DNA from: Nakazawaea peltata
Lineage: Eukaryota; Ascomycota; Pichiomycetes; Alaninales; Pachysolenaceae
DNA length: 64,000 nt
Reading direction: 5' to 3'
Assembly (NCBI GenBank): GCA_001599355.1
Contig: BCGQ01000001.1
Coordinates: 251,135-315,134, forward strand
This document shows positions 1,218-64,000 of the stretch, piece by piece; within the stretch, counting starts at the first letter, position 1, and each line of letters opens with the position of its first letter. Position numbers and translations under genes: made by a program. The notes beneath the pieces are model-generated. The model searched no databases. It saw only the letters and a list, made by a program, of their open reading frames with translations, and was not told the DNA's origin.

Positions 1218-2222
1218 TGCGGAGAGAGGGGTAATGAAATGGCTGAAGTCTTGATGGAATTCCCAGAATTGTTCACCGAAATCAACGGTAGAAAGGAACC
1301 TATCATGAAGCGTACCACTTTGGTTGCCAACACTTCTAATATGCCAGTGGCCCTGCGAGAGGCCTCTATTTACACTGGTATTACTTTGGCTGAATATTTC
1401 AGAGATCAAGGTAAGAACGTTTCTATGATTGCCGATTCTTCTTCTAGATGGGCTGAAGCTTTAAGAGAAATTTCTGGTCGTTTGGGTGAGATGCCTGCCG
1501 ATCAAGGTTTCCCAGCTTATTTGGGTGCCAAATTGGCCTCTTTCTACGAGAGAGCCGGTAAGGCCACTGCATTGGGTTCTCCAGACAGAGTTGGTTCCGT
1601 TTCCATTGTTGCTGCTGTTTCTCCAGCTGGTGGTGATTTCTCCGATCCTGTCACCACATCTACTTTGGGTATTACTCAAGTATTCTGGGGTTTGGATAAG
1701 AAGTTGGCTCAAAGAAAGCATTTCCCTTCGATCAACACTTCTGTTTCTTACTCGAAGTACACTAACGTCTTGAACAAGTACTACGATAACAACTACCCAG
1801 AGTTCCCATCGTTGAGAGACAGAATCAGAGAGATCTTGTCTAATGCTGAAGAATTGGAACAAGTTGTTCAATTGGTCGGTAAGTCTGCTTTGTCCGACTC
1901 CGACAAGATCACTTTGGACGTTGCCTCTTTGATCAAGGAAGATTTCTTGCAACAAAACGGTTACTCCACTTATGATGCCTTCTGTCCTATTTGGAAGACT
2001 CATGCCATGATGAAGGCTTTCATGGGATACCATGACGAGGCTCAAAAGGCTGTCAGCAACGGTGCTATTTGGTCTAAATTGGCCGACCTGACCAGTGACG
2101 TCAAGCACGCCGTCTCTTCTGCCAAGTTCTTCGAGCCATCCAGAGGTGAATCTGAAGGTAATACCGAATTCGAGAAGTTGTTCTCTACTATTCAAGAGAG
2201 ATTCTCTGAAAGCACAGACTAA
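1..2222 (+). CDS. VMA1: V-type H+-ATPase catalytic subunit A (Vma1), intein-containing, 5' truncated
   Basis: Catalytic ATP-hydrolysing subunit of the V1 sector of the vacuolar proton pump. The frame is open from the left edge (first full codon at base 3), so the N-extein and the start of the intein lie outside the window. Bases 1-1217 encode intein. The C-extein begins at Cys (1218-1220) and runs 334 residues to TAA at 2220, the same length as the S. cerevisiae C-extein and nearly identical to it from CGERGNEM to FAESTD-like FSESTD. Protein splicing must remove the intein before assembly. The invariant motif PVAAREAS reads PVA-CTG-REAS here (CTG 1353-1355), one of the best indications that CUG means Ala. 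Convergent with the next gene (152 bp apart). Confidence 0.97.
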
Positions 2223-2374
2223 TTTCTTTCATCCCATTCAGTTCCGTTTAGTTAGCTCACAGATATCTGATCCTATCACCATCCGGATCATTTATATTTA
2301 TAAAATAAAAAACCCATTTAGATTGTCGATCAGAGATAAATACATTTTAAAATTTATAATAAACATATTTTGTT

Positions 2375-3211
2375 CTAAATAGAGATTGTATCGGGATTTG
2401 TGGAGAAACAGGATAGGCAATCCAGGAGGCCCAGCCAACATTGAGTCAGTTCCCAGATACTTTGAGCTGATACTGTCTTTCTGTACTGGTCGAATCTACC
2501 GTTTGATCCGGGGTTCAAGGGTAGAGCAATTGTAGTTGGCAGAGCTGAAGGTGGCAGTAAGGGACTTCTTTGGTAACCTTTTACTGTCGAGGGAAGGGCA
2601 GGAGGGATCATGTTATTTGATTTCGTAGCTGGGATGATGGTACTTTCAAATAAGGGTTTCAAAGTTTCCTGGATTTGCAGACTCGCGGTGTATACACTGC
2701 TTATCATTTTCAATAATTTGGGGGTTTCAATTGAGGAAATGGAATCAATGGGGGTGTTTATTTTTAGCAGAGGAGATGATGGGGTATTGATAGTTTGTTG
2801 CGGAGTTTGCAGTGTATTGTTGTTCGGTTTCGTAATCTCAGAAACCAGAACAGGCAATGAGTTGATTTGATTAGATTGAAATGGATGAGTTCCTACTAAC
2901 AGTGTTTCAGTAGAGGTTGGAGTGATCCCTGGTCTAAATCGTAATAGTTCATCTTCAATATATTCCTGGAATCTAGGAGGTGGAAGATACCTCAAAGACT
3001 GAGTTCGTCTTATTTCCGAGACCAAAGATGCTGATTTGAATTCTTTCTCAAAAGACAGCTTCCGTTTGGCTTTTGGGGGTAAATGCAGATCATCCAAATC
3101 TCTTTTTTCAGTACTAAGAATCTTCAATTGAGTTTCTGGAGAGACTTCTGATAATGAGTCTAATTCCGATTCGGCTGTTACGTAAGCTTGAGATTCGGTT
3201 TCCGATAACAT
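2375..3211 (-). CDS. Hypothetical protein, Ser/Thr/Pro-rich
   Basis: A 278-residue frame with a good ATG (3209-3211) and a TAG stop, convergent with VMA1. I do not recognise the family. The N-terminal third is charged, with a basic patch (PPKAKRKLSFEKEFK) and a more ordered-looking segment (RYLPPPRFQEYIEDELLR). The middle is Ser/Thr/Pro/Asn-rich and probably disordered. A C-terminal helical segment is followed by a Cys-containing end. Several SP and TP pairs suggest a phosphorylated regulatory protein, but that is inference. It is probably real because it is the only long frame between VMA1 and the next promoter. Confidence 0.6.
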   Translation of the reverse strand: MLSETESQAYVTAESELDSLSEVSPETQLKILSTEKRDLDDLHLPPKAKRKLSFEKEFKSASLVSEIRRTQSLRYLPPPRFQEYIEDELLRFRPGITPTSTETLLVGTHPFQSNQINSLPVLVSEITKPNNNTLQTPQQTINTPSSPLLKINTPIDSISSIETPKLLKMISSVYTASLQIQETLKPLFESTIIPATKSNNMIPPALPSTVKGYQRSPLLPPSALPTTIALPLNPGSNGRFDQYRKTVSAQSIWELTQCWLGLLDCLSCFSTNPDTISI

Positions 3212-4114: not shown

Positions 4115-5182
4115 ATGGATATAGACACGGATATTCAAATGGAGGATGCAGTTGATGACCCTCAATCAGGAGTTCAAGAGTCCTTCTTTGGATCGAATAA
4201 TGAGACCAGTAATAATGATAATAATAATTCGCAGGGCGGACAATCACTGGTAGAGTTGACTCTGCTGAGTGTTTCTCAATTAGATGCATGGATAGAGAGC
4301 TTGAGCCAATGCAAGCCGTTGACAGAAGAACAAGTAAAGGAGTTGTGTAAGATGGCCATTGATGTATTGAAACAAGAGGATAACGTTCAACCCGTCAATG
4401 TACCTGTCACCATTTGTGGTGATGTTCATGGTCAATTCCATGATTTGATGGAATTATTCAAGATCGGAGGTCCTTGTCCAGATACGAATTACTTGTTCAT
4501 GGGTGATTACGTTGATAGAGGTTACTATTCTGTGGAGACCGTCAGTTATTTGGTTGCTATGAAGATTAGATATCCAAAGAGAATCACCATTTTAAGAGGT
4601 AACCATGAATCCAGACAAATTACCCAAGTTTATGGTTTCTACGATGAATGTTTAAGAAAATATGGATCTGCCACCGTTTGGAAATTATTCACCGATTTAT
4701 TCGATTATTTCCCAATTACTGCATTGGTCGATAACAAGATCTTCTGTCTTCATGGTGGTTTATCTCCAATGATTGAAACCATCGACCAAGTTCGTGAATT
4801 GAACAGAATTCAAGAAGTTCCTCATGAAGGTCCAATGTGTGATTTACTTTGGTCTGATCCAGACGACAGAGGTGGATGGGGTATATCGCCAAGAGGTGCC
4901 GGTTTCACATTTGGCCAAGATATTAGTGAACAGTTCAACCATCTCAATGACTTACAATTAATCGCCAGACTGCATCAGTTGGTAATGGACGGTTATTCGT
5001 GGTCTCACCAAGAGCAAGTCGTCACCATCTTCAGTGCTCCAAACTACTGTTATAGATGTGGTAATCAAGCTGCTATCATGGAAGTCAATGAAAATATGGA
5101 TAGAGAATTCTTAACTTACGATCCTAGTGTTAGACCAGGAGAACCAACCGTCACAAGAAAGACTCCAGATTATTTCTTATGA
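4115..5182 (+). CDS. PPH21: Protein phosphatase 2A catalytic subunit
   Basis: Ser/Thr phosphatase catalytic subunit (PPH21/PPH22 orthologue), 355 aa from ATG 4115. That start gives [13 protein letters not shown], matching the start of yeast Pph21; the frame itself opens earlier at a TTG. The metal-binding motifs GDVHGQ, GDYVDRG and GNHE are present, as is the C-terminal TPDYFL tail, whose last Leu is carboxymethylated in this family to control B-subunit binding. About 50 N-terminal residues form the Asn/Gln-rich extension typical of fungal PP2A. The invariant RAHQLVMEGY motif has CTG (4970-4972) in the Ala position. Only one PP2A gene is seen here; whether a second paralogue exists elsewhere is unknown. 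Confidence 0.97.
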
Positions 5183-5285
5183 TTACATGAATCATCCTTC
5201 ATGCTCTCAACATTATTCTTTGTTACTTTTTATATCATTATTACTTTTTTATTAGTTTAAAATAAATTCATCATTATGTTCTAAT

Positions 5286-5967: not shown

Positions 5968-7968
5968 TCACAATTGTTTGAATTCGGCTTTCTTAGTGCT
6001 AGGCCAATATTCAAGGTAGTTGACTTGGTTCCTGACAATGAGAGGACCTGTATTGATGAAATGACATCCCTCATAAGTAACGTCAAACTCACTTATTGTA
6101 GAATCACTTAATAAGATCATTGAAGGTAGAGGCGATACTGTCAAATAGTAATCTTTGTTCCATACAATTGGCCTTACATTAGTATCAAAAGGTGATAAAT
6201 GAGCTTGATCAAGCATTGTTTTGACCAATTTTCTCAGTTCTAATACTTTTGTAGGGATCAGGGTATCATGAATGACCGAGTCGATATTCAATTTTTCTTC
6301 CTCGACGTCAATTATCTCATCTTGTTTCTCTTCGGTGATATTCTTTGAATTATCGTCTAATAAGATGGAAGATCTTTTCAATCTCGCATTGAGGTCGTCA
6401 CGAACGGCCACAATTTCTTGACTAAGATAATTGATCTTTGTCGGGTTAGTAGCAAAATGACAATTCTTCACCATTCTGTTTAACCTATTTGTGAATACTT
6501 TAGGGATACCATTTTGTGGCCAAACAGTAGAGCTTCCCTTACTGAACAGAGAACTCCAAGGATCTTTCTCACTTGGCACAAATATTAAGGAAACTTGAGA
6601 ACAAATAAGTGGAAATTTTTCCAATAACGACAGAAGACCATCGAACAGTTGTTTGTATGTGGTTGATAATGATAATGTTGATACTGAAGCTGATGTATAT
6701 TGTGAAGTAGTGAATGTTTGACTAGTGAATGGACCATTGAAAATGATACAGATCAGCTTTTCAGTACCCATTTCTAATTCATCTGTTACCTTTGTGAATA
6801 ATTTCTTCAATCCATCCAAACATCTAGAATCGTCTAATTTACAATCGTATCCCAACACTATGAACTTCTGATTCGATAACTCTCTTTCCAGTAATTGCAT
6901 ATCTTTCCTCAAACTTCTATTGATTCTGGTGATACCGTTCACCGACGTGACTTGGTTTCTATTCATTGTATTGGTTCCCGAGTTGATCCCCAAGAAATCA
7001 ATATTACCATATGCATTTAAGGTCAGCTCTCGCCTCTCCAGAGGAGGGTGTCCCATAGTGGAACAGTAAAACTTGTTACTATTCGAATAAATACCTTCCA
7101 CAATGACGAAAAATCCAGGACAATAATACGATCCTTCAGTAGTGATGCATTGTGATAATTCCAACTCAATTCTGTCGGATTCATCTTCTAAACAATAATT
7201 ACCTGCCTCATTCTTCGTAAGTAAGCCAAATAACACAAATCTTTGACCATGTCTTCCCAACATATTTTTGATACGGGAGATCGTGACACTTGAGCTATGA
7301 ATTGAACCTGTTAACGAGTTGATAGATGAGAAAGAAGGCTCTTGGAAATTTGGATTTCGCGATAATCTCAGTTGTATTACCCCAAGTCTTGTCTTATAAA
7401 GATCCAAATTCGATTGTAAATGACTGATCTTATCATTTGATGCCGCGTCTCCAACTTCATACTGTTTCTTAATCAAATCAAATTTATAGTTAGGTTGATC
7501 ATGAGCAGGAATCACTTTAAAGAAGTCCTGCCACAGTAACTTATGATCAACTTCCTTGATAGCACCATACTCAGTATCTGGTGCATTATCTTGATATATA
7601 CGAACTTCGGTACTCTTGTCGGAAACAGTCTTCAACATGTCATTCAATTCCAACTTTTTAGAGCTGACACTGGAGCTTCTTCGTCCCTCAATAACTGAAC
7701 TCAACTCTTTAATCACCGTATCGACACCTTGTGGATCCAAGAATATACTCCTACCTTGTTCTTTCCATAACTTTCCCAAATCATCAAGAAACTCCTGAGC
7801 CTTTAAACTCTTCCAATTGTTCCCATAAGTCATCCCTATATAATCAGCTAAGATCTTCAAGGACTCTGTCTGAATATTCAAGCCATGTTTTTTCGAGAGA
7901 ATACGGTATGCAATGGGTCTCAAGTTCGCCGGATGTAACTTTACCGGTAACTGAATAGGTCCCTCCAT
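5968..7968 (-). CDS. DPB2: DNA polymerase epsilon subunit B (Dpb2)
   Basis: A 666-aa essential second subunit of the leading-strand polymerase, which tethers Pol2 to the CMG helicase (yeast Dpb2 is 689 aa). The N-terminal about 90 residues form the small helical domain. After a linker comes an OB-like segment (FVLFGLLTKNEAGNYCLED), then the inactivated calcineurin-like phosphoesterase fold (FIVLGYDCKLDDSRCLDGL, LIFVPSEKDPW, FATNPTKINY). The C-terminus (VYEG-like VTYEGCHFINTGPL) matches the B-subunit family ending. ATG at 7966-7968. The promoter carries an MCB box 100 bp upstream. Confidence 0.93.
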   Translation of the reverse strand: MEGPIQLPVKLHPANLRPIAYRILSKKHGLNIQTESLKILADYIGMTYGNNWKSLKAQEFLDDLGKLWKEQGRSIFLDPQGVDTVIKELSSVIEGRRSSSVSSKKLELNDMLKTVSDKSTEVRIYQDNAPDTEYGAIKEVDHKLLWQDFFKVIPAHDQPNYKFDLIKKQYEVGDAASNDKISHLQSNLDLYKTRLGVIQLRLSRNPNFQEPSFSSINSLTGSIHSSSVTISRIKNMLGRHGQRFVLFGLLTKNEAGNYCLEDESDRIELELSQCITTEGSYYCPGFFVIVEGIYSNSNKFYCSTMGHPPLERRELTLNAYGNIDFLGINSGTNTMNRNQVTSVNGITRINRSLRKDMQLLERELSNQKFIVLGYDCKLDDSRCLDGLKKLFTKVTDELEMGTEKLICIIFNGPFTSQTFTTSQYTSASVSTLSLSTTYKQLFDGLLSLLEKFPLICSQVSLIFVPSEKDPWSSLFSKGSSTVWPQNGIPKVFTNRLNRMVKNCHFATNPTKINYLSQEIVAVRDDLNARLKRSSILLDDNSKNITEEKQDEIIDVEEEKLNIDSVIHDTLIPTKVLELRKLVKTMLDQAHLSPFDTNVRPIVWNKDYYLTVSPLPSMILLSDSTISEFDVTYEGCHFINTGPLIVRNQVNYLEYWPSTKKAEFKQL

Positions 7969-8074: not shown

Positions 8075-8298
8075 TTGGGGAGAACATGGAGCAAATTACG
8101 AATTATTGGCGAGCCGAGGAAAAGAGGTGTCGTGTGAAAGGGAGGGGATAAATAAGCAAAAAGGGAGATCACAGCCGAGCTAGTGGAGTACAAAGAAACT
8201 ACCCCAAGACGATGGTGACCTTTGTTTATGATCTCATCTTTATGACCTTTGTAGCTCAACACTAAATATCATCAAAGGGAGGGGAAGTAAAAAAAATG

Positions 8299-8370
8299 CT
8301 CCGCGACGGGGAATCGAACCCCGGTCTACCGCGCGACAAGCGGTAATTCTAGCCACTAAACTATCACGGA
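8299..8370 (-). tRNA. tRNA-Asp (GUC anticodon)
   Basis: A 72-nt gene read on the minus strand. It starts TCCGTGATAGTTTAGTGG (acceptor and D arm), has the anticodon loop CTTGTCGC with GTC, and ends with the T arm CGGGGTTCGATTCCCCG and the acceptor 3' strand CGCGGAG. It is very close to S. cerevisiae tRNA-Asp(GUC). There is no intron. The internal A box (TAGTTTAGTGG) and B box (GGTTCGATTCC) are intact. An A-rich tract (T-run on the minus strand) just downstream, about 8289-8296, can serve as Pol III terminator. Confidence 0.97.
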
Positions 8371-9528: not shown

Positions 9529-11103
9529 ATGAGTATTACCAAGGTTGATCTGCAAATCTCAATCAACGAAGAACTCACCGGTGAGTCTATCGAAGATCAA
9601 AAGGTAACTATCAAGGATTTCAAGATCCCTTTCTCCAAGAAGAAGGAATTTTTCTTCTCTAAGGAGGAACCTCCAAAGCCCGCCCCAAGACCTTTCTTCC
9701 TTTGGCACCCTCCAGGAAGATCTGCATACGAAAAGAAGTTGGTTTTCAAGCTTGACTGTGTCTTGTTGACTTTGGTATGTCTTAGTTTCTTCGTTAAGTA
9801 TATGGATCTGAGTAACCTTTCCTATGCTTATACCAGTGGTTTGAAGGAAGACTTCAACATGAGTGGTGACCAATATAACTGGTTGTCCACTGCTTTCTCT
9901 TTGATTTACGCTTACTGTGGTATCTTCTTGACCGTTTTGATCACCAAGGTCAGACCAAGTATCTTGTTGCCAACCTGTGAGCTTCTTTGGGGTATTATGA
10001 CTCTGATGGTCGCTGCTACTTCCAACTACCAGGGTATTATGGCTGTCAGATGTCTTCAAGGTGCTATTGAAGGTGTCAGTTACCCAGCTATTAACTATAT
10101 TTTGGGTGCTTGGTACACCAAGGAGGAGTTGACCAAGAGAACCGCTATTTTCTGTGTTTCTGGTTCCCTTGGAAGTATGTTCGGTGGTTACATTCAATCT
10201 GGTATTTATGCCTCTTTGGAGGGTAAGGGTTCTTTGGCTCCATGGAAGTGGGCTTTCATTGTTGACTTCTTGATCACCCTTCCAGTTGCTATCCTCTGTT
10301 TCTTCTTCTTGCCAGATACTCCTTCTGAACAAAGACCTAACTGGATTTTCTCTGCAGAGGAGATCGAATTCTTCAAGAAGAGAGTCGAATTAGACCAAGA
10401 GCACATCAAAGAGAGCAACAAGTTCGACTGGTCCATTATTACTACTGCCTTGACCTCTTGGCAATTCTACATTATCCCATTGGCCTACGCTATGAACCAA
10501 GTCGGTGAGTACGTTAGTGGTTACTGGGGTATTGCTTTGAAGCTGGATGGGTACTCTGTTTACCAAGCTGACAACTACCCAACTATTTGTTCTGGTGTGG
10601 GTATCGTGGTAGCTCTTTTGGCCAGTGTTTGGTGTGACTGGAGACAGAATTTCTGGCAGCTGTATACTGCTGTTAACCTTCTTTGGACATTCTCTTTCGC
10701 CGTTCTCGTTGCTTGGGATGTTCCATTACCATTCCAATTCTTTGCCTTCACTATCTCCAAGTTCAACGATTGTACAGCCACTATTATTTGTTCCTGGGCT
10801 AACACATTGTTGTCTCACGACAGACAACTTCGTGCCGTTGTTTTGGGATCTTTGAATGTCTGTTACTCCATCTTCTACACTGCTATCCCACTTACTGTCT
10901 GGAACACTGATTACGCTCCAAGATATGAAGCTGCTCATCTTGTCCATTTGATTATTCAAGTTATTTCTACTGTCTTCTGTCTTGTCGTCATCTTGTTTGA
11001 CAGATACCAAAGAAGAAAGATGGTCTTCATCGAAAGTCAATTGGCCGAGAAGGGTACAGTTGTCATCGAAGCTGAAGATGAGGAAAAGATCTCTGGCATG
11101 TGA
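9529..11103 (+). CDS. Anion:cation symporter (ACS) family MFS permease, Fen2/Vht1/Dal5-like
   Basis: A 524-aa plasma-membrane transporter with about 12 membrane segments between residues 75 and 505. N-terminal features fit the ACS family: FKLDCVLLTLVCL followed by YMDLSNLSYAYTSGLKEDF. Midway, TAIFCVSGSLGSMFGGYIQ and WAFIVDFLITLPVAI are most like the pantothenate/biotin/nicotinate branch (Fen2, Vht1, Liz1). LPDTPSEQ ends the sixth segment. The substrate cannot be fixed: pantothenate, biotin, allantoate and ureidosuccinate are all family substrates. The GATAAG cluster upstream and the nearby urate-pathway gene make a nitrogen compound such as allantoate a fair guess. ATG 9529 is the first in frame. 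Confidence 0.85.
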   Translation: MSITKVDLQISINEELTGESIEDQKVTIKDFKIPFSKKKEFFFSKEEPPKPAPRPFFLWHPPGRSAYEKKLVFKLDCVLLTLVCLSFFVKYMDLSNLSYAYTSGLKEDFNMSGDQYNWLSTAFSLIYAYCGIFLTVLITKVRPSILLPTCELLWGIMTLMVAATSNYQGIMAVRCLQGAIEGVSYPAINYILGAWYTKEELTKRTAIFCVSGSLGSMFGGYIQSGIYASLEGKGSLAPWKWAFIVDFLITLPVAILCFFFLPDTPSEQRPNWIFSAEEIEFFKKRVELDQEHIKESNKFDWSIITTALTSWQFYIIPLAYAMNQVGEYVSGYWGIALKLDGYSVYQADNYPTICSGVGIVVALLASVWCDWRQNFWQLYTAVNLLWTFSFAVLVAWDVPLPFQFFAFTISKFNDCTATIICSWANTLLSHDRQLRAVVLGSLNVCYSIFYTAIPLTVWNTDYAPRYEAAHLVHLIIQVISTVFCLVVILFDRYQRRKMVFIESQLAEKGTVVIEAEDEEKISGM

Positions 11104-12325
11104 GCTAGTCTCCTGGATTTTTCGTTTTAATTCTGAATTTATAAATCTTGTTTAGTCAATACTATTAAGGTATCCCTTATTTTGGTAAAGATTTTATTGT
11201 AGTTCTGTATCTGAAAAGGGAAAGATGCGCTCCATCTCGCCTCCATCTCGCCGAAATAAGAAATTTTTAGGGTTTGAAGAGGAGCTGAGCTGAGCTGGGC
11301 TTAGACTTAGTCAAATTAAGTAAATGTTACTGATAAGAAGTGCCCCAAGATAAGTCGTCAAATATTTCTCATCGGCCAATTTTAGATCGCAAATATCAGG
11401 AGTTAGACCCAATGTGTCATCTCCAGCTTTTTGCAACCTCAGGAGCGATTGGTCGCTAATGTGCGTCCGTTACGGAGATACAGCTTAAATATGAGTGTTT
11501 TTTATGTAACCCAAAAACAAACTGCCTATTACAGAACTGAAAAAAACAAAGAAACTCTAACCGCTGAAAAAATCTTGGTATTAAAAATAGGGAAGTTTAG
11601 TTCCCAAGCTAAGTGCTGTAAAGATGCCATCTTTACTCAAGCTTTTATTAGACAAGACTATCTAACACTCAAGCAACTCCTTAGCGTCTATATCTCTTGG
11701 TTTGCATTCTGCTCAACCGATAAAGAATCCTCTTAGCGGACTCTTTGAGTTTCCTGAAACAAAATTATTACTGACTAATTTTTAAGCTTTTCAGAGCACT
11801 GGGCAAAAAAGCCCGCGGGAATTTTGACCTCTATGCTCAGGGATTTATACAGTTGTCGTAAGTAGCTAAATAAAATAGAATTGGGGTGAAAAATTCTCCC
11901 TAAATGCTCAAGTATCTACCTCAAGTAAGTATCTGACAGCGAATTGTTCTCCAGGTTTGTTAGGGTAACAATAGATGTAGAGTAATGCCTAAGATCAATC
12001 GCCGACCTAGTCTTGTTGGCGGGTATTTTTATTATGTATCAACCCATTTATATGATGAAAAAGTCTGGGCATCGGGTCTAATGGTCTTATCTGCCGTTAG
12101 CGCATTCTCTACTAGTCGTTTTATTGGTTGTAGGAAAAACATGCTTACTTTCCTTATCAAGATAGCGTGCGTGTGAAAGGGAACATAATCCAAATTTGGC
12201 AGGTACATTCTCAGGGGTGAGCAATATGCAGGAGTCAGATAAAGGCTGAAAAAATATATATAAAGTTCACCGATGGCATGATATCAAGTCTGGGAGAGAC
12301 AGGATTGATAAACAGAAAATACATA
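11104..12325. other. Intergenic region upstream of the amino-acid permease
   Basis: About 1.2 kb without a convincing gene. GATAAG sites occur at 11332-11337, 11349-11354 and 12153-12158 (minus). TATATATAAA is at 12255-12264. Short tandem repeats CTCCATCTCGC and GAGCTGAGCTGAGCTG lie near 11230-11300. A frame at 11491-11736 could encode 81 aa but shows no family signal. Confidence 0.55.
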
Positions 12326-14026
12326 ATGTCTGATTCTAAATCCCCTGAAATCGTTTATAGAGAAACAAGCTACGATGACAAGAAGGTAGTCGACACCAAC
12401 GGATTTCATTCCCTGGAGGGATATGAACAGTCGTACGGTGCAACAAAAAGAGGTTTCAATTCGAGACATATCGGTATGTTCCTGGTGGGACTGAGTATTG
12501 GAAGTGGTCTTTTCGTTGGTATTTCCAGTCCTCTTACTACATCTGGTTCGTTATCTCTATTCCTTGGGTTTATCTTCTATTCCGTTTTTGTTATGTGGCC
12601 ATTGATGCAATGTGTCACCGAAATGTGTTCTTGGTTGCCTATCAGAGGTTCCATTTTCCACTTTGGTGCTAGATTTATTGACCCTGCTGTTGGGTTCGCT
12701 GCTGGGTGGATCTATTTCTATACTGCTGCCATGTTCGTCTGTGTCGAATATGTCGCTTTCGCAAGTGTGATTCAATATTGGGACTCAACTACCAACCCAG
12801 GTGCCTATATTGCCTTGGGTCTTTTCTCGAGTTTCTTCTTCCTGGTTCTCCCAAACAAAATTTATGGTGAGATCGAATTTTACTCTGCTATCTTGAAGGT
12901 TTTGTTAATTGTCGGTTTAATGTTCTTTGGTTTGATTTCCATGTGTGGAGGTAACCCTAACCATGATGCTTACGGTTTCCAACATTGGAAAGAAGGAGGA
13001 CTCTTCAGAGAGTATCTTGTTGATGGAAGTACTGGTCGTTTCCTCGGTTTCTGGAACACTATGATTTACCTGCTGTTCGCCTGTGGTGGTCCAGATTTGA
13101 TTCTGTTAATCGCTGGTGAATGTAAAGAGCCAAGAAGACTTTTGCTGCTTTGTGGTAAGAGAGCCTATATTAGAATTTATTTGTTCTACATCGGTGGTGT
13201 TTTCTTCTTGAACACTCTTTGTTCTTCTATTAACCCTGACTTGTTGGCTGCCATTGATTCTGGTGCTGCCGGTGCTGCCGCCAGTCCTTGGGTCATCGGT
13301 ATCAAATCTGTCGGTGTTAAAGGTATTGCTTCTTTGGTTAATGCTGTCGTTATGACTTCTGCTTACAGTTGTGGTAACGGTTTTGTTTTCACCGCTTCCA
13401 GAACTCTTTACTCTTTGGCTTTGGCTGGTTACCTGCCAAGAATCTTCATGAGATGTCTTCCTAACGGTGCCCCAATTGTATCATTGATTCTGGTGGTATT
13501 AATTGGATGTTTGGGATTCTTGACCGTCAGTAACCTGACTTCCACCGTTTTCGACTGGTTCGTTAACTTACTGACCACCGGTATGTTGTGTACCTATCTT
13601 TTCATGTTCATGTGTTACTTCAAATTCAAGAAGGCCTTCAAAGCTCAAGGTCATGAGAACTCTGAATTGTACTACACTGCTCCATTCAACCTTCAACCAT
13701 GGTGCTCTTACTTTGGTATGTTCTTGACCGCAGTCATCATCTTCTTCAATGGATTCTGGATCTTTTTCCCTGGTCAATTCAGTGTTGCCAACTTATTCAC
13801 CTCTTATTTTGCGCCAGTATTAATGATTGGAAGTTATCTTTTCTGGAAAATTCTCAAAAGAACGAAACATTGGGACAACACTGAAGCCGATATTATCACC
13901 GATAAGCTGGAAATCGATGCCGAAGAGGAAGAATACTTGGAATGGTTGGTTGATCATCCAGGTTTGGAGAGTAAGAACAAATTTTTCTATTATCTTTTCA
14001 AAGTCAACGACTTTTTGTTTGGTTAG
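12326..14026 (+). CDS. Amino-acid permease (yeast amino-acid transporter, APC superfamily)
   Basis: A 566-aa plasma-membrane amino-acid/H+ symporter with about 12 membrane segments. I chose ATG 12326 (MSDSKSPEIVY) over the in-frame ATG at 12278 because the latter is only 14 bp past the TATATATAAA box. The first membrane segment carries HIGMFLVGLSIGSGLFVGIS, the family substrate-binding glycine motif. Later motifs are FACGGPDLILLIAGE and TASRTLYSLALAGY. If CTG is Ala, these become YAAFACGGP and GYAPRIF, closer to the family consensus. The C-terminus has an acidic tail (DAEEEEYLEW). The substrate is unknown. GATAAG sites upstream suggest nitrogen control. Confidence 0.88.
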   Translation: MSDSKSPEIVYRETSYDDKKVVDTNGFHSLEGYEQSYGATKRGFNSRHIGMFLVGLSIGSGLFVGISSPLTTSGSLSLFLGFIFYSVFVMWPLMQCVTEMCSWLPIRGSIFHFGARFIDPAVGFAAGWIYFYTAAMFVCVEYVAFASVIQYWDSTTNPGAYIALGLFSSFFFLVLPNKIYGEIEFYSAILKVLLIVGLMFFGLISMCGGNPNHDAYGFQHWKEGGLFREYLVDGSTGRFLGFWNTMIYLLFACGGPDLILLIAGECKEPRRLLLLCGKRAYIRIYLFYIGGVFFLNTLCSSINPDLLAAIDSGAAGAAASPWVIGIKSVGVKGIASLVNAVVMTSAYSCGNGFVFTASRTLYSLALAGYLPRIFMRCLPNGAPIVSLILVVLIGCLGFLTVSNLTSTVFDWFVNLLTTGMLCTYLFMFMCYFKFKKAFKAQGHENSELYYTAPFNLQPWCSYFGMFLTAVIIFFNGFWIFFPGQFSVANLFTSYFAPVLMIGSYLFWKILKRTKHWDNTEADIITDKLEIDAEEEEYLEWLVDHPGLESKNKFFYYLFKVNDFLFG

Positions 14027-19013: not shown

Positions 19014-19625
19014 ATGTCAGGTGCTTCAAAGATGGAAGAATTCGATGACTTGATGCCAGAAGATAACACCGATTACAAGGTCGGTGAAAAGAAGACTTTA
19101 GATGAATATGCCAAATTGGACGCCGAAGATGAATCTCTTGCTAAATGGAAGGCTTCATTAGGGTTAACTACTGAGAATTTGTTACCAGTTGATCCAAAGG
19201 ATCCTAGAAAAGTAGTCATTATGTCGATGACTTTGTTGATTCAAGGTGAAGAGCCAGTCGTTGTCGACCTCTCTGCTACCACTAATGACCAGACAATCAA
19301 AGATAGAAAGATCTCATTCAAGGTGAAAGAAAAATCGATTTATTCTTTGAAGATCAAATTCAAGGTCCAGCATGAATTAGTCACCGGATTGAAATATTTA
19401 CAACTGGTTAAGAAGGCAGGTATCACTGTCGATAAGTCAGATGAACCTTGTGGCTCATACCTGCCTAATACTACAAATACTCCATTCTACGAGGTACAAT
19501 TACCTGAGAGTGAAGCTCCAAGTGGTATGTTAGCAAGAGGATCATACAGTGCCGTATCTAGATTTGTCGACGACGATAAGAACATTCATTTGACAATCCC
19601 ATGGCAATTACAAATTACCAAATAA
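19014..19625 (+). CDS. RDI1: Rho GDP-dissociation inhibitor
   Basis: A 203-aa cytosolic protein (yeast Rdi1 is 202 aa) that extracts prenylated Rho GTPases such as Cdc42 and Rho1 from membranes. The N-terminal regulatory arm includes the KTLDEYAKLDAEDESLAKW helix, followed by the immunoglobulin-like fold with DPRKVVIMSMTLL, the GSY-x-PNT turn, APSGMLARGSY and the terminal HLTIPWQLQI. CTG in GSY-x-PNT (19461-19463) stands where relatives have Ala or Gly. Tail-to-tail with RBS1 (71 bp). Confidence 0.95.
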   Translation: MSGASKMEEFDDLMPEDNTDYKVGEKKTLDEYAKLDAEDESLAKWKASLGLTTENLLPVDPKDPRKVVIMSMTLLIQGEEPVVVDLSATTNDQTIKDRKISFKVKEKSIYSLKIKFKVQHELVTGLKYLQLVKKAGITVDKSDEPCGSYLPNTTNTPFYEVQLPESEAPSGMLARGSYSAVSRFVDDDKNIHLTIPWQLQITK

Positions 19626-26865: not shown

Positions 26866-28133
<1,268 letters not shown>

Positions 28134-32492: not shown

Positions 32493-32805
32493 ATACTTAT
32501 TAATATATTTTAGTCATAGTTTTTAGTAATGTTAAAATTAGTAATATTAAAAAGAGGGTGTTTCCGGAAAGTAGTGTATATGAGTCTAATTTCCATTTAC
32601 GGATTTGTGTGGGTTTCCCATATGTAGTGTGTATTATCCCAATTTCCATTTTAGGACATTTAAGAGATAAGTTGCTCACCCCCCACCCCCCAAGAGTGTC
32701 GTCAAGAGAAGGTGAGATATAGCCGGGTGAATGTTGATAAGAGAGCCTTCAGAAGTCTGTGAATTGGTGGGAAGTTGAAGATACACCACTTCGGAAGTTA
32801 ATAAT
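32493..32805. other. Spacer between the two acetyltransferase genes
   Basis: A 313-bp region with the 3' end of gene A, a C-rich patch (CACCCCCCACCCCCC-like, about 32678-32691) and the promoter of gene B. The nearly repeated phrases AGTGTATATGAG and AGTGTGTATTA lie at 32573 and 32626. No gene is seen. Confidence 0.55.
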
Positions 32806-49500: not shown

Positions 49501-51739
49501 TAAGCTGAGTGATTTGAATGTCCAAGACATCATCACTGGTGTCCAACAACTTTGTGCTAAGTTGTTCGTCACTAAGGGTACCGGAAGATTGTATGAAGAG
49601 ACCCAAGAGAATGCCACTTTGTTATTCCAATGTTTGGTTCGTTCTCGTCTTGCTACTCGTCGTGTCATTGAAGAGTTCAGATTGAACAAGCTGGCTTTCG
49701 ACTGGACTATTGGAGAGATTGAATCTCAATTCCAAAAATCCGTCGTGAATGCCGGTGAAATGGTTGGTGTCGTTGCTGCTCAATCTATTGGTGAACCAGC
49801 TACTCAGATGACCTTGAATACTTTCCATTTTGCTGGTGTTTCTTCTAAGAACGTCACATTAGGTGTTCCTCGTCTTAAGGAAATCTTGAACGTTGCCAAG
49901 AACATTAAGACTCCTGCTCTTACTGTTTATTTGGAACCAGAAGTTGCTGCTGACATCGAGAGAGCCAAGGTTGTTCAATCTGCCATCGAGCATGCCACAT
50001 TGAAGAATGTGACCGCTTCGACCGAGATTTATTACGATCCTGATCCAAGAACCACCGTCATCGAAGAAGATGTCGACACTGTCGAGGCCTACTTTGCTAT
50101 TCCAGATGAAAAGATCGAAGAGACCATCGACAAACAGTCTCCTTGGTTGCTTCGTTTCGAACTTGACCGTGCTAAGATGTTAGACAAGCAATTGACAATG
50201 AGTCAAGTAGTCGAGAAGATCCAAGAGAACTTCCTCGATGATCTTTTCATCATCTGGTCCGAAGATAACGCCGATAAGTTGATTATCCGTTGTCGTGTTG
50301 TTCGTGATCCTAAGGCCATGGACGAAGACGACGAGGACAAGGAAGATCAGATGTTGAAGATGGTGGAATCCAAGATGTTGGAGTCGATCTCCCTTCGTGG
50401 TATTCCAGGTATCACCAGAGTGTTCATGATGAAGCATAAGAAGAGAGCTCCAGATGCTACTGGTGCCTTCAAAGATGGTGAAGAATGGGTACTTGAAACC
50501 GATGGTATCAACCTTGGAGAGGTTATTTCTGTTCCAGGTGTCGATTCGACTAGAACTTACTCTAACTCCTTTGTTGAAGTATTGTCAGTCTTTGGTATCG
50601 AAGCTGCCAGACAAGCCTTGTACAAGGAGATTCTTAACGTTATTTCCTTCGATGGTTCGTATGTTAACTATAGACATATGGCTTTGTTGGTCGATGCTAT
50701 GACTTCGAGAGGTCACTTGATGGCCATTACTCGTCATGGTATTAACAGAGCCGATACCGGTGCTTTGATGAGAGCTTCTTTCGAAGAAACTGTCGAGATT
50801 CTTCTTGAAGCCGGTGCTGTTGCCGAATTAGACGATTGTCATGGTGTTTCTGAGAATGTTATGTTGGGTCAAATGGCTCCATTGGGTACTGGATCTTTCG
50901 ATGTCATGGTTGATGAGGCTATGCTTAGTACGATTGCTGGTAATGTTGCCCAAGGTGTCCCAGCTTCCTTCCTCAAGGGATCTTCTCTTGTCGATGGTGC
51001 TGCTACTCCTTACAGTATGGCCGAGAACTTGCACAATGATCAAATTTATGATGATGCTGTCGCTTCGTTCTCTCCAATTGTTCAAGCTGGTGCTGTTGAA
51101 GATGATCGTGGTGGTTTGACTGCTTATGGTGGAGGTATTCTGAGTCCATATAATCCTACATCGCCTGGATTCGCGGCTACGTCTCCGTTCTCTGGTGCTA
51201 CCTCACCAGGATATGGAGCTTCGTCGCCTTCGTACTCTCCAACATCTCCTTCATACTCTCCAACTTCACCATCTTATTCTCCTACATCTCCATCATACTC
51301 CCCAACCTCCCCATCATACTCACCTACATCTCCATCTTATTCCCCAACATCCCCATCGTACTCCCCAACATCGCCATCTTATTCTCCAACTTCACCATCA
51401 TACTCTCCAACTTCACCATCTTATTCCCCAACATCGCCATCCTATTCCCCAACGTCTCCATCATACTCACCTACATCCCCATCATACTCACCTACATCCC
51501 CACAGTATTCGCCAACCTCACCGCAATACTCCCCTACATCCCCACAATACTCCCCAACATCTCCACAATACTCCCCAACATCTCCACAATACTCCCCAAC
51601 GTCCCCACAGTATTCCCCAACGTCCCCACAATACTCACCAACTTCTCCTCAATACTCTCCTACTTCCCCTCAATACTCGCCTACCTCACCACAGTATAGT
51701 CCGGGATCTCCTACTTACGAGCCTAAGGAAGAGCATTGA
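46565..51739 (+). CDS. RPO21: RNA polymerase II largest subunit (Rpb1)
   Basis: A 1724-aa catalytic subunit (yeast 1733 aa). The clamp zinc site [17 protein letters not shown] is at about 68-84. The active-site NADFDGD motif (about 481-487) supplies the three Mg-binding Asp. The bridge helix and trigger loop are conserved ([38 protein letters not shown]). The C-terminal domain starts at 51233 with 23 heptads. In-frame CTG codons in this gene sit at variable positions, or at a position where human Rpb1 has Ala (47426-47428), and never at a leucine I recognise as invariant. Tail-to-tail with BPL1, 152 bp apart. Confidence 0.98.
51233..51715 (+). repeat. Rpb1 CTD heptad repeats, two-block (12 YSPTSPS + 10 YSPTSPQ + 1 YSPGSPT)
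   Basis: A 21-bp coding repeat in strict register: 12 consensus YSPTSPS heptads, then 10 heptads with Gln in position 7, then YSPGSPT and the tail YEPKEEH. The switch from Ser7 to Gln7 is abrupt and complete. Confidence 0.96.
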
Positions 51740-55219: not shown

Positions 55220-56821
55220 TTATCTACTGAAAGTAATATCATCGATTCTCAAAATCGACTTAACACATTCACTGGCTAACAAGATGGCACTTTTACTGAC
55301 TAATACTGGTTGTAAGACGTGCTCATCGTAAGTGTTGGTAGCACCTGATCTCCTAACACTTATTCCGGCGTTTCTTTCACCATTTTCATGTCTGTTTCTC
55401 AAATCAGTGACGATTTCAATTGGGTTCAATCCGGCATTCTCAGCTAAGGTAGTAGGAATGACTTCCAAAGCATTGGCAAATTCTTTGAAACAGAATTGTT
55501 CTACACCAGATAACTCATTAGCTTCTTTGGTCAATGTTCTAGAGACTTCCACTTCTGGAGCTCCTCCTCCGGCAATCAACAGTCTCTCCTTCACAAGACA
55601 TCTAATAACACATAAGGCATCATGTAAAGATCTTTCGGTCTCGTCCAAAACCAATTGGTTAGCACCTCTGCAAACAACCGATACTGTTGGGGAAGTGACA
55701 TTCTTGACTCCGGTGATTTGTACAATCTTAGAACCGGCTGATTCGATCTCTTCAACACAATCGGCAGTACCAAGTCTTTGTTCGGCGAAAGAATCGACAT
55801 CGGCAATTGGTTTACATCCCAAAGATTTAGAGATAAACTCAATCTCATCTCTTTCGATATCTTTAACTACCATGATATTCAATTTACTCAAGAAATGTAA
55901 AGCCAAATCGTTGACAGCATCTCTCAAGATGGATTTCTGAATCAATAAAACATTACATTTGGCCTTCTTGATCTTCTTACAAATGTTCAACAAATAAGCT
56001 CTCTCCTCTTTCAAAATCTTATCCATTTGTCTGTAATCATTGACGACAACGTTGTTCTCCATGTCTGGTTTAGGTGGAGATAATTGGAATTGGATCAAAC
56101 CGATCTTTGCCTTTTCTACTCTGGTTGGACCACCGGCACTCTTGACTACATTTTGGGTCAAGATGACACCATCGACCAACTCGGTGTCATCGATAGTTCC
56201 ACCAACCTTCTTAATCAAACGAATATCATTCAAATCAACATTAGAAGCTTCTGGATTTGTCACTTTCAAGACCGAATTCACGGCAATTGGAGCCAACAAT
56301 GCAGAATGTTGAGATACAATTTTGGAACTTAAAGAGGTGGTGGCGGCCCTGATCAACAGCTCCTTATCATCGAGAGAAATCTTATGGGACATATCTAACA
56401 AGATCTCGACAGATCTCAGAGCAGCTCTTTGGAAACTCTCCGATATGATGGTTGGATGAATCCCTTTATTCAATAATTTTTCCAGGGCACCCAACAAGGC
56501 ACCGGTGATGATGGCGACCGAGGTGGTTCCATCTCCAGCCTCGGTGTCTTGGGCAGCACTAACATCGACTAACATCTTGGCAGCCGGATGTAACACAGCC
56601 ATATGCTTTAAGATCGTGTGTCCATCGTTCGATATGATATACTCTCCTTTACTAGTTTTGATCATCTTGTCCATTCCCTTCGGTCCCAACGAGGTTCTGA
56701 TGGCGTCACTTACGGCACGGGCGGCAATGATATTGGCCTTACGTACTTCCAGAGGCTTTTCCTTATTCTTGAAAGTGGCATTGGATGGAAGGACTCCACC
56801 TGCAACTGCTCCACTCGACAT
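55220..56821 (-). CDS. CCT4: Chaperonin CCT/TRiC subunit delta
   Basis: A 533-aa subunit of the cytosolic chaperonin that folds actin and tubulin. ATG 56819-56821 was chosen because it gives [22 protein letters not shown], aligning with yeast [16 protein letters not shown]; the frame itself extends upstream from a TTG. Motifs are [13 protein letters not shown], the ATPase GDGTTS loop, [13 protein letters not shown] and GAGGGAPE-like [10 protein letters not shown], and the end [11 protein letters not shown]. Several CTG codons occur at variable positions, for example KE-CTG-LIRAA where yeast has Gln. Confidence 0.97.
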
Positions 56822-57197: not shown

Positions 57198-58265
57198 ATG
57201 ATGCCAGGAGCACAAGACTCAGAACCAATCGCCTCCTTACCAGAACTCAAAGTCCAAGATTTAGTGGCGTGCAGTTATTCTTCATGGTATCTGAAGTACC
57301 ATAAGTATGCCCTAACCAAATCTGAGATCATTAAACCTTTGCCCCTTGAATTTATCAATTATTTATTAAGCGATGGGATTCTGTTACCAAATGACGCAGA
57401 TGATCATATTGCGTATAATAGTGATTTTAGTGATTGGGAAGAGGATGACGAAGCGCAGACGATACTGAGTACGAAAAAGACCGCGCAAGAGGTTGACCCA
57501 ATAGCTCAGTTTAAGGAGCTTCATGAAGAGGTGAAGGCGAAAATTGAGGATTTGGGAAGATCATTTACACCCAAGTTGAATTGGTCCGCCCCTAGAGATT
57601 CCACTTGGATTTTACCTAATAACACTTTACAATGTCATTCTATTAAAGATTTGTATTTGTTATTGAATGCTTCCGATTATGTGGTACACGATTTGACTAA
57701 CACGTTTGGAGATCAATTAAAAAGACCAGATGGGTTTGAATTCGAGCTCATATTGAGAAAATGGTACCCGGATTTCAACCCTGCTATGGAATTCAGATGC
57801 TTTGTTAAGAATCGTACTTTGGTGGCTATTTCACAAAGAGATTTGAATTATTATACTTTCCTTGATGAGTTGTATGATGACATATATGATGCCCTGGTAG
57901 GGTTCTTCGACAAGCTGTTACAAACGTCTTTCGAGTTGGATGATTTCGTATTTGACATTTATGTTCCAAGACCATTCAAGAGAACTTATCTTGTAGATAT
58001 CAATCCATTTGCAACTGTAACTGATGGGTTACTTTTCACATGGGATGAACTTGCTGATATTAATGAAAAACTGCCCGATTTCAACCCGGAATTGAGACTT
58101 GTAACCGAGGTGAATAAAGGAAGATTCGCTTCAAAAGAACATAGTGAGAATCAAGTCCCACGTGATATAGTAGATGCCTCAATGGATGCCACTGCAATGG
58201 CAGAATTGGCTCGTGAATGGAAGAAGTTAATGGATAAAGAAGACGAAGAAAGCGACGATGAATAA
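57198..58265 (+). CDS. CDC123: eIF2 assembly factor Cdc123
   Basis: A 355-aa ATP-grasp-like protein (yeast Cdc123 360 aa) that loads eIF2gamma onto the eIF2 complex. The N-terminus has SSWYLKYHKYALTKSEIIKPLP. An acidic stretch (SDFSDWEEDDEA) is followed by KLNWSAPRDSTWI, the ATP-site strand region MEFRCFVKNRTLVAISQRDLNYY and FVFDIYVPR, and the metal-binding LVDINPF. The motif NKGRFASKEHSENQVPRDIVDAS is nearly invariant. The C-terminal tail is acidic. Stop is 25 bp from the SAS10 stop. Confidence 0.95.
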   Translation: MMPGAQDSEPIASLPELKVQDLVACSYSSWYLKYHKYALTKSEIIKPLPLEFINYLLSDGILLPNDADDHIAYNSDFSDWEEDDEAQTILSTKKTAQEVDPIAQFKELHEEVKAKIEDLGRSFTPKLNWSAPRDSTWILPNNTLQCHSIKDLYLLLNASDYVVHDLTNTFGDQLKRPDGFEFELILRKWYPDFNPAMEFRCFVKNRTLVAISQRDLNYYTFLDELYDDIYDALVGFFDKLLQTSFELDDFVFDIYVPRPFKRTYLVDINPFATVTDGLLFTWDELADINEKLPDFNPELRLVTEVNKGRFASKEHSENQVPRDIVDASMDATAMAELAREWKKLMDKEDEESDDE

Positions 58266-59958: not shown

Positions 59959-60033
59959 CTTTAGCTGATCCTGCCCTCGTCTGATGACTACTCAACACCC
60001 GTTTCAATCTCTCTTTATAAAAAAAATGCCCCT

Positions 60034-60079
60034 AAAAATTTTTTCCCTACTGAAAATTTTTTTCCACAGTGAAAATTTG
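60034..60079. promoter_or_regulatory. Three RRPE-like boxes (AAAATTTT) between SAS10 and RPC53
   Basis: AAAAATTTTTT (60034-60044), TGAAAATTTTTTT (60051-60063) and GTGAAAATTTG (60069-60079). The rRNA-processing element TGAAAATTTTT marks ribosome-biogenesis and Pol I/III genes in yeasts, and both flanking genes belong to that set. No convincing PAC box (GCGATGAG) was found with them. Confidence 0.65.
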
Positions 60080-60215
60080 TAGGGAAGAGCTGAGTTGGAA
60101 GAGACGTGGGAGAGATTGGAGGATAGACCTAGAAGAGATTTGAGTTGAGCAGACAGGGTATTTAGATTGTCATATTAAGAGTATACGAGATAGTTAGAGA
60201 AGGCGCGCCAATCAA

Positions 60216-61400: not shown

Positions 61401-61413
61401 TAAATTTAAACGT

Positions 61414-62511
61414 CTATTCAATTTTTTGTTTTTTAGATTCAGGGTCCAATTGCGGTTCGACGCTTGGAGCCTCTCGTTTCTTCTTCAACATTTTCAGGGG
61501 CGTAATACAATAATGGACCTTCTTGTCGATGATTTTCGACTCTTCAAGACCCGGATCATACCCTGTATTTACATGAGCTTCACATTCTTCTATCACCAGT
61601 AACAATTTTTGGAATCTTTGTGAATCTTGAGTATCTTCCGGATCTGGCGATTCGTCATTTTCTGATTCTTCTTTAATAGTGTTCAATTTTGGGGATGCTC
61701 CTTCCATTTTTCTCTTCAAATACCGGTCAATTAATTCCTTGTTGATTTTTCTCCAACACAGTAAAGCAATTTGGGGTGGGGTATATAAAAACAGCAGGTC
61801 TGAGATCAAACTTTCATTGACCAATTCTCTTGTCTTATCGTAACTGGCACCAATCTTCTTCTTATCAACTTTAGGCAAGACAGTTTGGATATCCAAATAG
61901 AATCCATACAATGACCTGAACGGATGATGTACCATCAATGTAAATTGAAGAGATTGCACCACCAAATATTCATGTTTTAAAATGGTCTCTGGCAGAATGT
62001 TGTTGATCTTGCTCAGGAAAGTCTTGATCCCGATGAAATAATTCTCCAGTTTCAGCAGGATGAAGAGACAAGTGAGCATTATATTCTTGGGATGATACTC
62101 CATCACCGAATGTACAATATAGAATCTTTTGAGATATGAGATCAGCGTTCCACGGACCTGTGAAGGCATCTTGAATAAATTCAGCAATCCAATCAGTTTT
62201 CTGGCGTAGTACAGTATGATTTTCAACTCTTCTTCGATGGTCAAAGTGATCAATTCTGACTCTAAATTCTCTTCTTTCCCAGTTATCGGGTTCAAAGTCG
62301 CCCGCGACTTCTTCTTGGCCAATTGAGTACCCTTCTCGTTGGCCTTCTGTCTCTTCAATTGGAGCTCTTCAGGTGAGAAGGACCAGATTTTGAATTGGGA
62401 CGATCTACGGTACAAATCGTCGTATTCCACACGTTTTGAAGAGTCATCTTCTTTCTTTAACTCATCCAGAGGAAGTTTCAGTTCTTGTTTCTCCACTTTA
62501 ACCGCCACCAT
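61414..62511 (-). CDS. CCL1: Cyclin H-type subunit of TFIIH kinase (Ccl1)
   Basis: A 365-aa cyclin partner of Kin28 (yeast Ccl1 393 aa), phosphorylating Ser5/Ser7 of the Pol II CTD. The ATG at 62509-62511 is the first proper start; the frame opens at a TTG. YRRSSQFKIWSFSPEELQLKR is the family N-terminus. The first cyclin box is about residues 105-205, with RFYIVHSVMEYHPK and the helix read as FI-CTG-CTG-K-CTG-ENYF (62047-62058). The conserved form there is LACKSENYF in yeast, so Ala fits. HHPFRSLYGFYLDIQ and LLFLYTPPQIALL mark the second box. The C-terminus is charged and disordered. Confidence 0.92.
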   Translation of the reverse strand: MVAVKVEKQELKLPLDELKKEDDSSKRVEYDDLYRRSSQFKIWSFSPEELQLKRQKANEKGTQLAKKKSRATLNPITGKEENLESELITLTIEEELKIILYYARKLIGLLNLFKMPSQVRGTLISYLKRFYIVHSVMEYHPKNIMLTCLFILLKLENYFIGIKTFLSKINNILPETILKHEYLVVQSLQFTLMVHHPFRSLYGFYLDIQTVLPKVDKKKIGASYDKTRELVNESLISDLLFLYTPPQIALLCWRKINKELIDRYLKRKMEGASPKLNTIKEESENDESPDPEDTQDSQRFQKLLLVIEECEAHVNTGYDPGLEESKIIDKKVHYCITPLKMLKKKREAPSVEPQLDPESKKQKIE

Positions 62512-63025
62512 GTCTGATTGTATTGGGGTTTTCTCAAGGTTATTCCGTTTGGAGGGTGAGATTTTCAATTAGAAAAATTTTATGCGCAGAGGAAATTGGG
62601 GGAGAATTAGGGGGGAATAAGGGGCGAATTGAGGCCACGAAGGGGGTTACGGAGGGGGTTACGAAGGGGGCTATGAAGGAGGGCTATGAAGGAGGGCCGA
62701 AAACAACGGGTGAACCCATGAAGAACATAACGAAAGAGAAATAAGGGTAACTCAAGATTTCCACCTCGTGCAACCGGGCACCAGACCCACTACTATCACT
62801 ACATCAATTAATAAAGGACTTTTTTTAGAGAATGTTATATCGTTTCAAATACCCCTCCCCCCCTTTTCTTCAACTCCAATATCTCATTTAGAAATATCAT
62901 ATAGAGTCCAAGAGGTAAAGGAAAAAGAAGTTCATATAAGTTGTATTGCACACAACCATAAAAGAAAAAAAGACAATAAAGGGATTTTGTTTCTAGACAA
63001 AGACTCTTTTTTTGATTTATGATGC
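62512..63025. other. CCL1 promoter and ATP1 3' flank with G-rich tandem repeats
   Basis: A 514-bp region. About five degenerate 12-15-bp units of the type AGGGGGTTACGA / AGGAGGGCTATGA lie at about 62640-62697 (on the minus strand, TAACCCCCT boxes facing CCL1). A/T-rich sequence near ATP1 probably contains its 3' UTR. No gene is seen. Confidence 0.6.
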
Positions 63026-64000
63026 TTAGAAGGTGGCGACGAAGGACTCGGTAGCGGACTTCAACTTGGTCAACATCTCGTCAGACAAGGAACCCTTGGT
63101 CTTGATGGCTTCCAAGATCTCACCTTCGTTAGCCTTCAAGTAACCCAAGAAGGATTCCTCGAATTCACCGATTCTGTTCAATGGGATAGCATCCAAGAAA
63201 CCGTTGACACCGGCGTAAACCAATGGGACTTGCTCCTCAGCAGCCAATGGGGAGTATTGCTTTTGGGTCAACAATTGGGTCAATCTCTCACCTCTGGCCA
63301 AGGTTTGCTTGGTGGAGGCATCCAAATCGGAACCGAATTGGGCGAAAGCGGCAACTTCTCTGTATTGGGCCAAGAAAAGCTTCAAGGAACCAGCAACTTG
63401 CTTCATGGCCTTGACTTGAGCGGCAGAACCGACACGAGAAACGGACAAACCAACGTTAATAGCTGGTCTAATACCCTTGTAGAACAATTCAGCTTCCAAG
63501 AAGATTTGACCATCGGTAATGGAAATAACGTTAGTTGGAATATAAGCGGAAACATCACCACCTTGGGTCTCAATAACTGGCAAAGCAGTCAAAGATCCAC
63601 CACCGAACAGCTCGGACATCTTGGCGGCTCTCTCCAATAAACGGGAGTGCAAGTAGAAGACATCACCTGGGTAAGCTTCTCTTCCTGGTGGACGTCTCAA
63701 CAACAAAGACAATTGACGGTAAGCAACGGCTTGCTTGGACAAATCGTCGTAGATGATCAAGGCGTGTCTACCGTTGTCTCTGAACCATTCACCAATGGCA
63801 CAGGCAGTGAATGGAGCCAAGTATTGCAATGGAGCAGCCTCAGAAGCAGTGGCGGCAACAATGATAGAGTACTTCATAGCATCGTGTTGTTCCAAAGTTT
63901 GGACCAATTGGGCAACGGTGGATCTCTTTTGACCAACGGCAACGTAGACACAGTACAACTTCTTGGACTCGTCGGCATCGTTGTTCCATCTCTTTTGGTT
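63026..64000 (-). CDS. ATP1: Mitochondrial F1Fo-ATP synthase subunit alpha, 5' truncated
   Basis: The C-terminal 324 codons of F1-alpha, open to the right edge, where the reading begins [31 protein letters not shown]. The match to yeast Atp1 is close throughout: [57 protein letters not shown], the noncatalytic-site [16 protein letters not shown] and the end [11 protein letters not shown]. The segment [15 protein letters not shown] has CTG (63608-63610, minus) where human F1-alpha has Ala. The P-loop and presequence are outside the window. Confidence 0.97.

Follow-up and report, generated by a model that had tools for sequence, protein, structure and literature searches.

The 64,000-base stretch of contig BCGQ01000001.1 analysed here (the window; G+C 40.2%) carries budding-yeast nuclear genes throughout, among them homologues of VMA1, UFD2, RPB1, CCL1 and ATP1, and this report concerns the meaning of the in-frame CTG codons in these genes. 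CUG is read as leucine by nearly all life, and a code in which it specifies alanine has been known since 2016 from Pachysolen and relatives; this CUG-Ala code is NCBI translation table 26 and belongs to the order Alaninales. A preliminary description of the window had proposed, from CTG codons at alanine positions of unrelated proteins, that CUG is read as Ala here as well. The results below strongly support that reading and give no sign of residual Leu, and the window almost certainly comes from a CUG-Ala yeast (Alaninales: Pachysolen, Nakazawaea and Peterozyma) in which a tRNA-Ala(CAG) would read the codon. Since CUG is read as Ala, the window should be translated with table 26.

CTG usage in the window

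A list of 38 open reading frames (ORFs) of at least 150 amino acids was reduced to 32 by removing six that were nested, overlapping or restatements of another frame from a later start. The 32 ORFs contain 15,966 codons, stops counted, and 233 of these are CTG (14.6 per 1,000 codons). When CTG was pooled with the four GCN codons (n = 1,062), it came third, behind GCT (396) and GCC (274) and ahead of GCA (128) and GCG (31). The CTG share of this pool rose from gene to gene with the share of GCA and GCG (Spearman 0.57, p 0.0007, 32 genes) and showed a weak inverse correlation with C-ending bias (−0.38, p 0.03). It was low in ATP1 (1/41), ARF (0/11) and VMA1 (4/66), and not low, despite strong C-ending bias, in the first of two alcohol acetyltransferase genes (7/30) and in an amino-acid permease gene (14/52). 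That CTG is the third most used Ala codon and tracks the unpreferred codons GCA and GCG across genes is a mild addition to the known code. Adjacent CTG-CTG pairs occurred nine times in the 32 ORFs, where about 3.4 were expected.

Residues opposite CTG in solved homologues

We translated ten of the 32 ORFs with CTG as X and aligned them to the sequences of solved structures (PDB), searching only part of RPB1 and of a sugar transporter. Four proteins were chosen blind to the scores, and the last six after early scores, for their many CTG codons and likely solved homologues. Fifteen of the 30 alignments were used, the rest being mostly near-identical or very close chains. With the closest target for each protein, 5,620 codon columns were tabulated and all 20 residues were scored by BLOSUM62 conditional odds. 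The BLOSUM62 background frequencies were entered by hand, and the scoring was repeated with frequencies estimated from the same alignments.

Of all 233 CTG codons, 87 lay in the aligned stretches used, and 84 of these had a residue facing them. A more distant POLE2-type chain (u90962) and the VMA1 intein domain do not enter these 84 columns. When the facing residues in the ten proteins were tabulated, as the preliminary description had suggested, Ala was the commonest (26/84), followed by Ser (10), Gly (7), Val and Gln (5 each), and Leu, Asp and Asn (4 each); rarer were Ile, Thr and Lys (3 each), Pro, Met and Tyr (2 each), and Cys, His, Glu and Trp (1 each). The best of the 20 residues for CTG was Ala (+31.0 bits), with Ser second (+13.2) and Leu at −55.9, and all 15 alignments together again gave Ala (+40.1 bits; Ser +6.1, Leu −72.7). 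With the data-derived frequencies Ala was ahead of Ser by 23.7 bits and of Leu by 184.8 bits. Ala was best in 4,704 of 5,000 bootstraps over the ten proteins, and protein by protein it beat Leu in nine of ten and Ser in seven of ten.

As a control, the same scoring was applied to the other sense codons, and the standard residue was returned for 58 of 60 (AGC and GCG fell short by no more than 0.3 bit). When all 15 alignments were used it was returned for 59 of 60, the miss being CTA (n = 10), by 0.4 bit. The other sense codons thus keep their standard meaning, and none looks clearly changed. Ala stood at 26/84 CTG columns versus 211/5,216 columns of codons that are neither CTG nor GCN (Fisher 7e-16), and at 19/59 GCA/GCG columns and 147/261 GCC/GCT columns, so that CTG sites are less conserved than GCC/GCT sites. 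Leu stood at 4/84 CTG columns, which resembles the GCN columns (11/320) and not the columns of other Leu codons (338/538; Fisher 4e-26 for CTG versus other Leu codons). Ser stood at 10/84 CTG columns versus 178/420 columns of true Ser codons.

Pfam scores under three codes

Pfam scans were run with CTG read as Ala (table 26), Leu or Ser (table 12) on 30 of the 32 ORFs, and 28 of these had a family; the ORFs at 2375..3211 (12 CTG) and 26866..27411 (no CTG) stood outside this test. Over 48 non-overlapping matches in the 28 proteins, Ala exceeded Leu by 136.8 bits and Ser by 45.4 bits; when the six matches (of 54) overlapped by a better family were added, the differences were 137.1 and 51.8 bits. 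By a margin of at least 0.5 bit, 25 of the 48 matches preferred Ala and five Leu, with 18 tied; in the comparison with Ser, 19 preferred Ala and six Ser, with 23 tied. In 20,000 bootstraps over proteins the difference between Ala and Leu never fell to zero or below, and that between Ala and Ser did so in 0.015%. The signal was uneven: the first ten proteins, UFD2 and CCL1 foremost, contributed 92.8 of the 136.8 bits against Leu and 39.6 of the 45.4 bits against Ser.

The masked columns and the Pfam scores are both independent of the examples picked in the preliminary description, and both give the same order, with Ala at the top, Ser next and Leu much lower. Since some proteins enter both tests, the two are not fully independent of each other. 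The outcome indicates that 64 kb suffices to infer the code when codon-by-codon controls are included.

CTG sites in individual genes

All 12 CTG codons named in the nine examples of the preliminary description were present, in frame and on the strands given there. Some of these examples are weaker than had been stated, and the case rests on the columns collectively, not on single examples. In PDB alignments with CTG masked, Ala was confirmed opposite the named codons at 1353 (VMA1), 17318 (methylmalonate-semialdehyde dehydrogenase), 24819 and 24825 (UFD2) and 13433 (permease). The UFD2 homologue (22131..25250, plus strand) has 16 CTG, and the 13 that aligned to Ufd2 faced Ala eight times, Ser twice, and Ile, Leu and Asp once each; its Ufd2P_core match scored 673.0 bits with Ala, 647.8 with Leu and 663.3 with Ser. 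The CCL1/cyclin H homologue (61414..62511, minus strand) also has 16 CTG. Its Cyclin_C_2 match scored 99.1 (Ala), 85.8 (Leu) and 92.2 bits (Ser), and its Cyclin_N match 42.6, 25.7 and 37.2 bits, respectively. Three CCL1 codons had been named as Ala positions. The one at 62056 faced Ala, Gly and Ala in three homologues; those at 62053 and 62047 faced Cys, Cys, Cys and Ser, Ala, Val and are therefore not alanine columns.

The remaining four named sites were judged by Pfam bits only. In the PP2A-type phosphatase (4115..5182, plus strand; 4 CTG, with only 4970 inside the Metallophos domain) Ala was best (144.1 bits; Leu 137.3, Ser 142.8). The site in the NTO1-like PHD protein (14310..16565, plus strand; 13 CTG) was uninformative (Ala 112.0, Leu 111.6, Ser 112.0). 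RDI1, a Rho GDI (19014..19625, plus strand; 2 CTG), speaks against Leu, with Ser slightly ahead of Ala (Ala 203.2, Leu 199.8, Ser 203.9). The single CTG of the 3' part of ATP1 (63026..64000, minus strand), at 63608-63610, carried little weight (Ala 226.0, Leu 224.9, Ser 226.2).

The amino-acid permease gene (12278..14026, plus strand) has 14 CTG, and the 11 that aligned to a lysine-specific permease faced Ala and Gly four times each and Asn, Pro and Ser once each; its AA_permease match scored 315.4 bits with Ala, 302.9 with Leu and 313.2 with Ser. The sugar-transporter-like protein (34187..36334, minus strand) also has 14 CTG, 10 of them in the searched stretch, and its Sugar_tr match scored 417.0, 409.2 and 411.0 bits, respectively. 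RPB1 (46565..51739, plus strand) has eight CTG; the seven that aligned to chain 5x4z faced Lys, Gln, Gln, Thr, Ser, Ala and Asp and are therefore not Leu sites. The 11 CTG of DPB2 (5968..7968, minus strand) faced Asp, Asp, Gly, Ile, Leu, Pro, Asn, Ala, Met, Gln and Thr. The five CTG of the CCT4 chaperonin subunit (55220..56821, minus strand) faced Gln, Ala, Lys, Gln and Gly in one homologue and Ala, Cys, Glu, Thr and Ala in a second. CDC123 (57198..58265, plus strand; 6 CTG) was the lone protein in the PDB test that scored against Ala relative to Leu; in Pfam (D123) it favoured Ala over Leu by 3.6 bits.

The methylmalonate-semialdehyde dehydrogenase gene (16607..18214, minus strand) has six CTG, opposite His, Val, Ala, Asn, Ala and Glu. 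The protein is close to a solved mitochondrial enzyme, 8xxq (550.5 bits); S. cerevisiae is not known to have such a dehydrogenase. The 3' part of VMA1 (3..2222, plus strand; Pfam Hom_end, Hom_end_hint and ATP-synt_ab) consists of the C-terminal part of an intein, at about 3-1217, followed by extein, in which the CTG at 1353 is opposite Ala and a second CTG opposite Ser. The intein is of the PI-SceI/VDE kind, with two LAGLIDADG-type stretches with Asp and an end in ...VLVHN followed by C, and its start is outside the window. Among the literature matches listed there was no mention of a VMA1 intein in Pachysolen.

Alternative readings of CUG

Several observations weigh against reading CUG as Ala. 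In Pfam, Leu was preferred by MFS_1 (9529..11103), EPL1 of NTO1, Rpc4, PCI and SPIN90_LRD, although CTG is absent from the best-matching stretches of PCI and SPIN90_LRD, and Ser was preferred by Rpb1_6, Rho_GDI, Hom_end, Globin, SPIN90_LRD and Scm3. The CDC123 columns put Ala 3.1 bits below Leu and 3.9 bits below Ser, and the columns of DPB2 (−2.0 bits) and RPB1 (−2.7 bits) lean to Ser over Ala. Both CTG codons of the VMA1 intein, which are outside the 84, were opposite Lys in the solved VMA1 chain, and the bootstraps over proteins picked Ser 278 times and Gln 18 times in 5,000. A free 20-residue mixture fitted to CTG gave weights of 0.55 to Ala, 0.07 to Ser and 0.01 to Leu, the Ala weight being below those of GCC (0.87) and GCT (0.94). 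Searches of the 64-kb window with ARAGORN and with Rfam, the latter in both gathering and E-value mode, revealed no tRNA-CAG. Finally, CTG is apparently not rare here, as judged from its raw frequency, unlike in the code-changed clades of PMC5951914, where CUG is relatively rare and lies at poorly conserved sites.

The spread of residues bears on whether decoding is ambiguous, with Ala inserted mainly and Ser or Leu as a minor share, which we consider improbable. A mixture of Ala and Ser did fit the CTG columns 5.3 bits better than Ala alone (Ser weight 0.31), and de novo peptide data had earlier been taken to suggest a Leu share of 10% at CUG in Pachysolen tannophilus, as mentioned in PMC8645108. 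However, mixtures of Ala with Gln (5.6 bits) or Asp (5.1 bits) gained as much as that with Ser, and a mixture of Ala and Leu gave Leu 0.04 for a gain of 0.6 bit. The control Ala codons showed a like spread: GCG placed 0.38 on Ala and 0.25 on Ser (n = 13) and GCA 0.52 on Ala (n = 46). The spread at CTG is therefore that of an unpreferred Ala codon at less conserved sites. PMC8645108 calls the peptide result mistaken and cites unambiguous translation, with more than 99% Ala, for P. tannophilus. Column statistics are blind to ambiguity from molecule to molecule, and there may be a small Ser share at CTG.

There is a similarly slight chance that CUG is serine (CUG-Ser1 or CUG-Ser2) and that the Ala columns arise merely from interchange of Ser and Ala. 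Ser was the second-best residue at CTG columns, was preferred by at least 0.5 bit in six of the 48 Pfam matches, and is where the RPB1, DPB2 and CDC123 columns lean. Against this, Ala was ahead of Ser by 45.4 bits in Pfam and by 23.7 bits in the masked columns, and Ser was far less frequent opposite CTG than opposite true Ser codons. No better are the prospects of a CUG-Ala yeast outside Pachysolen, Nakazawaea and Peterozyma, with an independent Leu-to-Ala reassignment, or of a member in which CUG is again a common Ala codon with some Ser or Leu inserted. The standard code, under which CUG would mean leucine and the Ala columns would stem from the selection of examples in the preliminary description, can be practically dismissed: Leu is found in the closest homologue at UFD2 356, DPB2 360, CDC123 233 and sugar transporter 121 and is preferred in five Pfam matches, but it lies at −55.9 bits in the masked columns and 136.8 bits below Ala in Pfam, and its frequency opposite CTG is similar to that seen at GCN.

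Decoding and placement of the window

The column statistics and profile scores were computed here; beyond them, we infer the decoding apparatus and the clade from what has been described for CUG-Ala yeasts. The decoder of CUG would be a tRNA with anticodon CAG derived from tRNA-Ala, it would be charged by alanyl-tRNA synthetase, which needs no anticodon, and the ancestral tRNA-Leu(CAG) would be gone. According to PMC5951914, a novel tRNA-Ala(CAG) arose in the CUG-Ala clade by anticodon mutation, and all synthetases except the alanyl- and seryl-tRNA synthetases depend on particular anticodon bases. A single tRNA gene was found in the window, tRNA-Asp(GTC) at 8298..8370 (minus strand), which does not decode CUG. 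An Rfam match to a long noncoding RNA at 58785-58847 was rejected as chance (21.3 bits versus a cut-off of 40).

In pairwise matches, Rpb1 scored 1767 bits with 5x4z, 1646-1647 with the 1i3q group and 1547 with 3h0g. We take these chains to be from Komagataella, S. cerevisiae and S. pombe, respectively; the search output names molecules only. The nearest chain is presumably from Komagataella, which would fit a place of the window beside the Pichiaceae. Within the Pichiaceae, PMC5951914 sets the CUG-Ala clade apart from a Leu2 clade that includes Komagataella. Placement in the Alaninales is consistent with these sequence matches but not proven. The G+C content of P. tannophilus is clearly lower than that of the window. 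With its 40.2% the window is compatible with the 42.3% given for Nakazawaea ambrosiae (PMC10106607, Table 2), although such agreement is not diagnostic.

PMC5951914 distinguishes five yeast clades and assigns the CUG-Ala code to Pachysolen, Nakazawaea and Peterozyma; the NCBI taxonomy has an order Alaninales with the family Pachysolenaceae. The window resembles the table 26 code in its Ala-like CTG columns, in the standard meaning of the other sense codons and in the lower conservation of CTG than of GCC/GCT, and differs from that code as described in that CTG is apparently not rare (233/1,062 of CTG plus GCN). In CUG-Ser1 (Candida, Serinales; table 12) the same codon is reassigned, and Ser is the runner-up here; unlike CUG-Ser1, however, the window puts Ser 45.4 bits below Ala in its Pfam scores. 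CUG-Ser2 (Ascoidea, Saccharomycopsis) reassigns the same codon too, whereas the window uses CTG commonly and the tests point to Ala. PMC11540330 reports CTG avoidance in Serinales and Ascoideales. Our Pfam test follows the same principle as Codetta, whose grouping of 462 yeasts includes a CUG-Ala clade; Codetta uses whole genomes, and the analysis here used 64 kb and hence fewer columns. According to PMC8629427, which describes the Codetta survey, 453 of the 462 yeasts fit the known distribution of CUG meanings, and the nine unresolved ones fall in the two Ser clades. Gene callers run with the standard code instead of table 26 would get about 1.5% of codons wrong in the window (233/15,966) and, by extension, in the genome.

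Other features of the window

Two adjoining alcohol acetyltransferase genes lie at 31155-34131 (plus strand; Pfam AATase, 85.0 and 91.7 bits) and are perhaps a tandem duplication. At 37894-38871 (plus strand) an ORF of 325 residues has a weak match to Globin in Pfam (25.5 bits, cut-off 22) at residues 83-146, followed by a long C-terminal extension.

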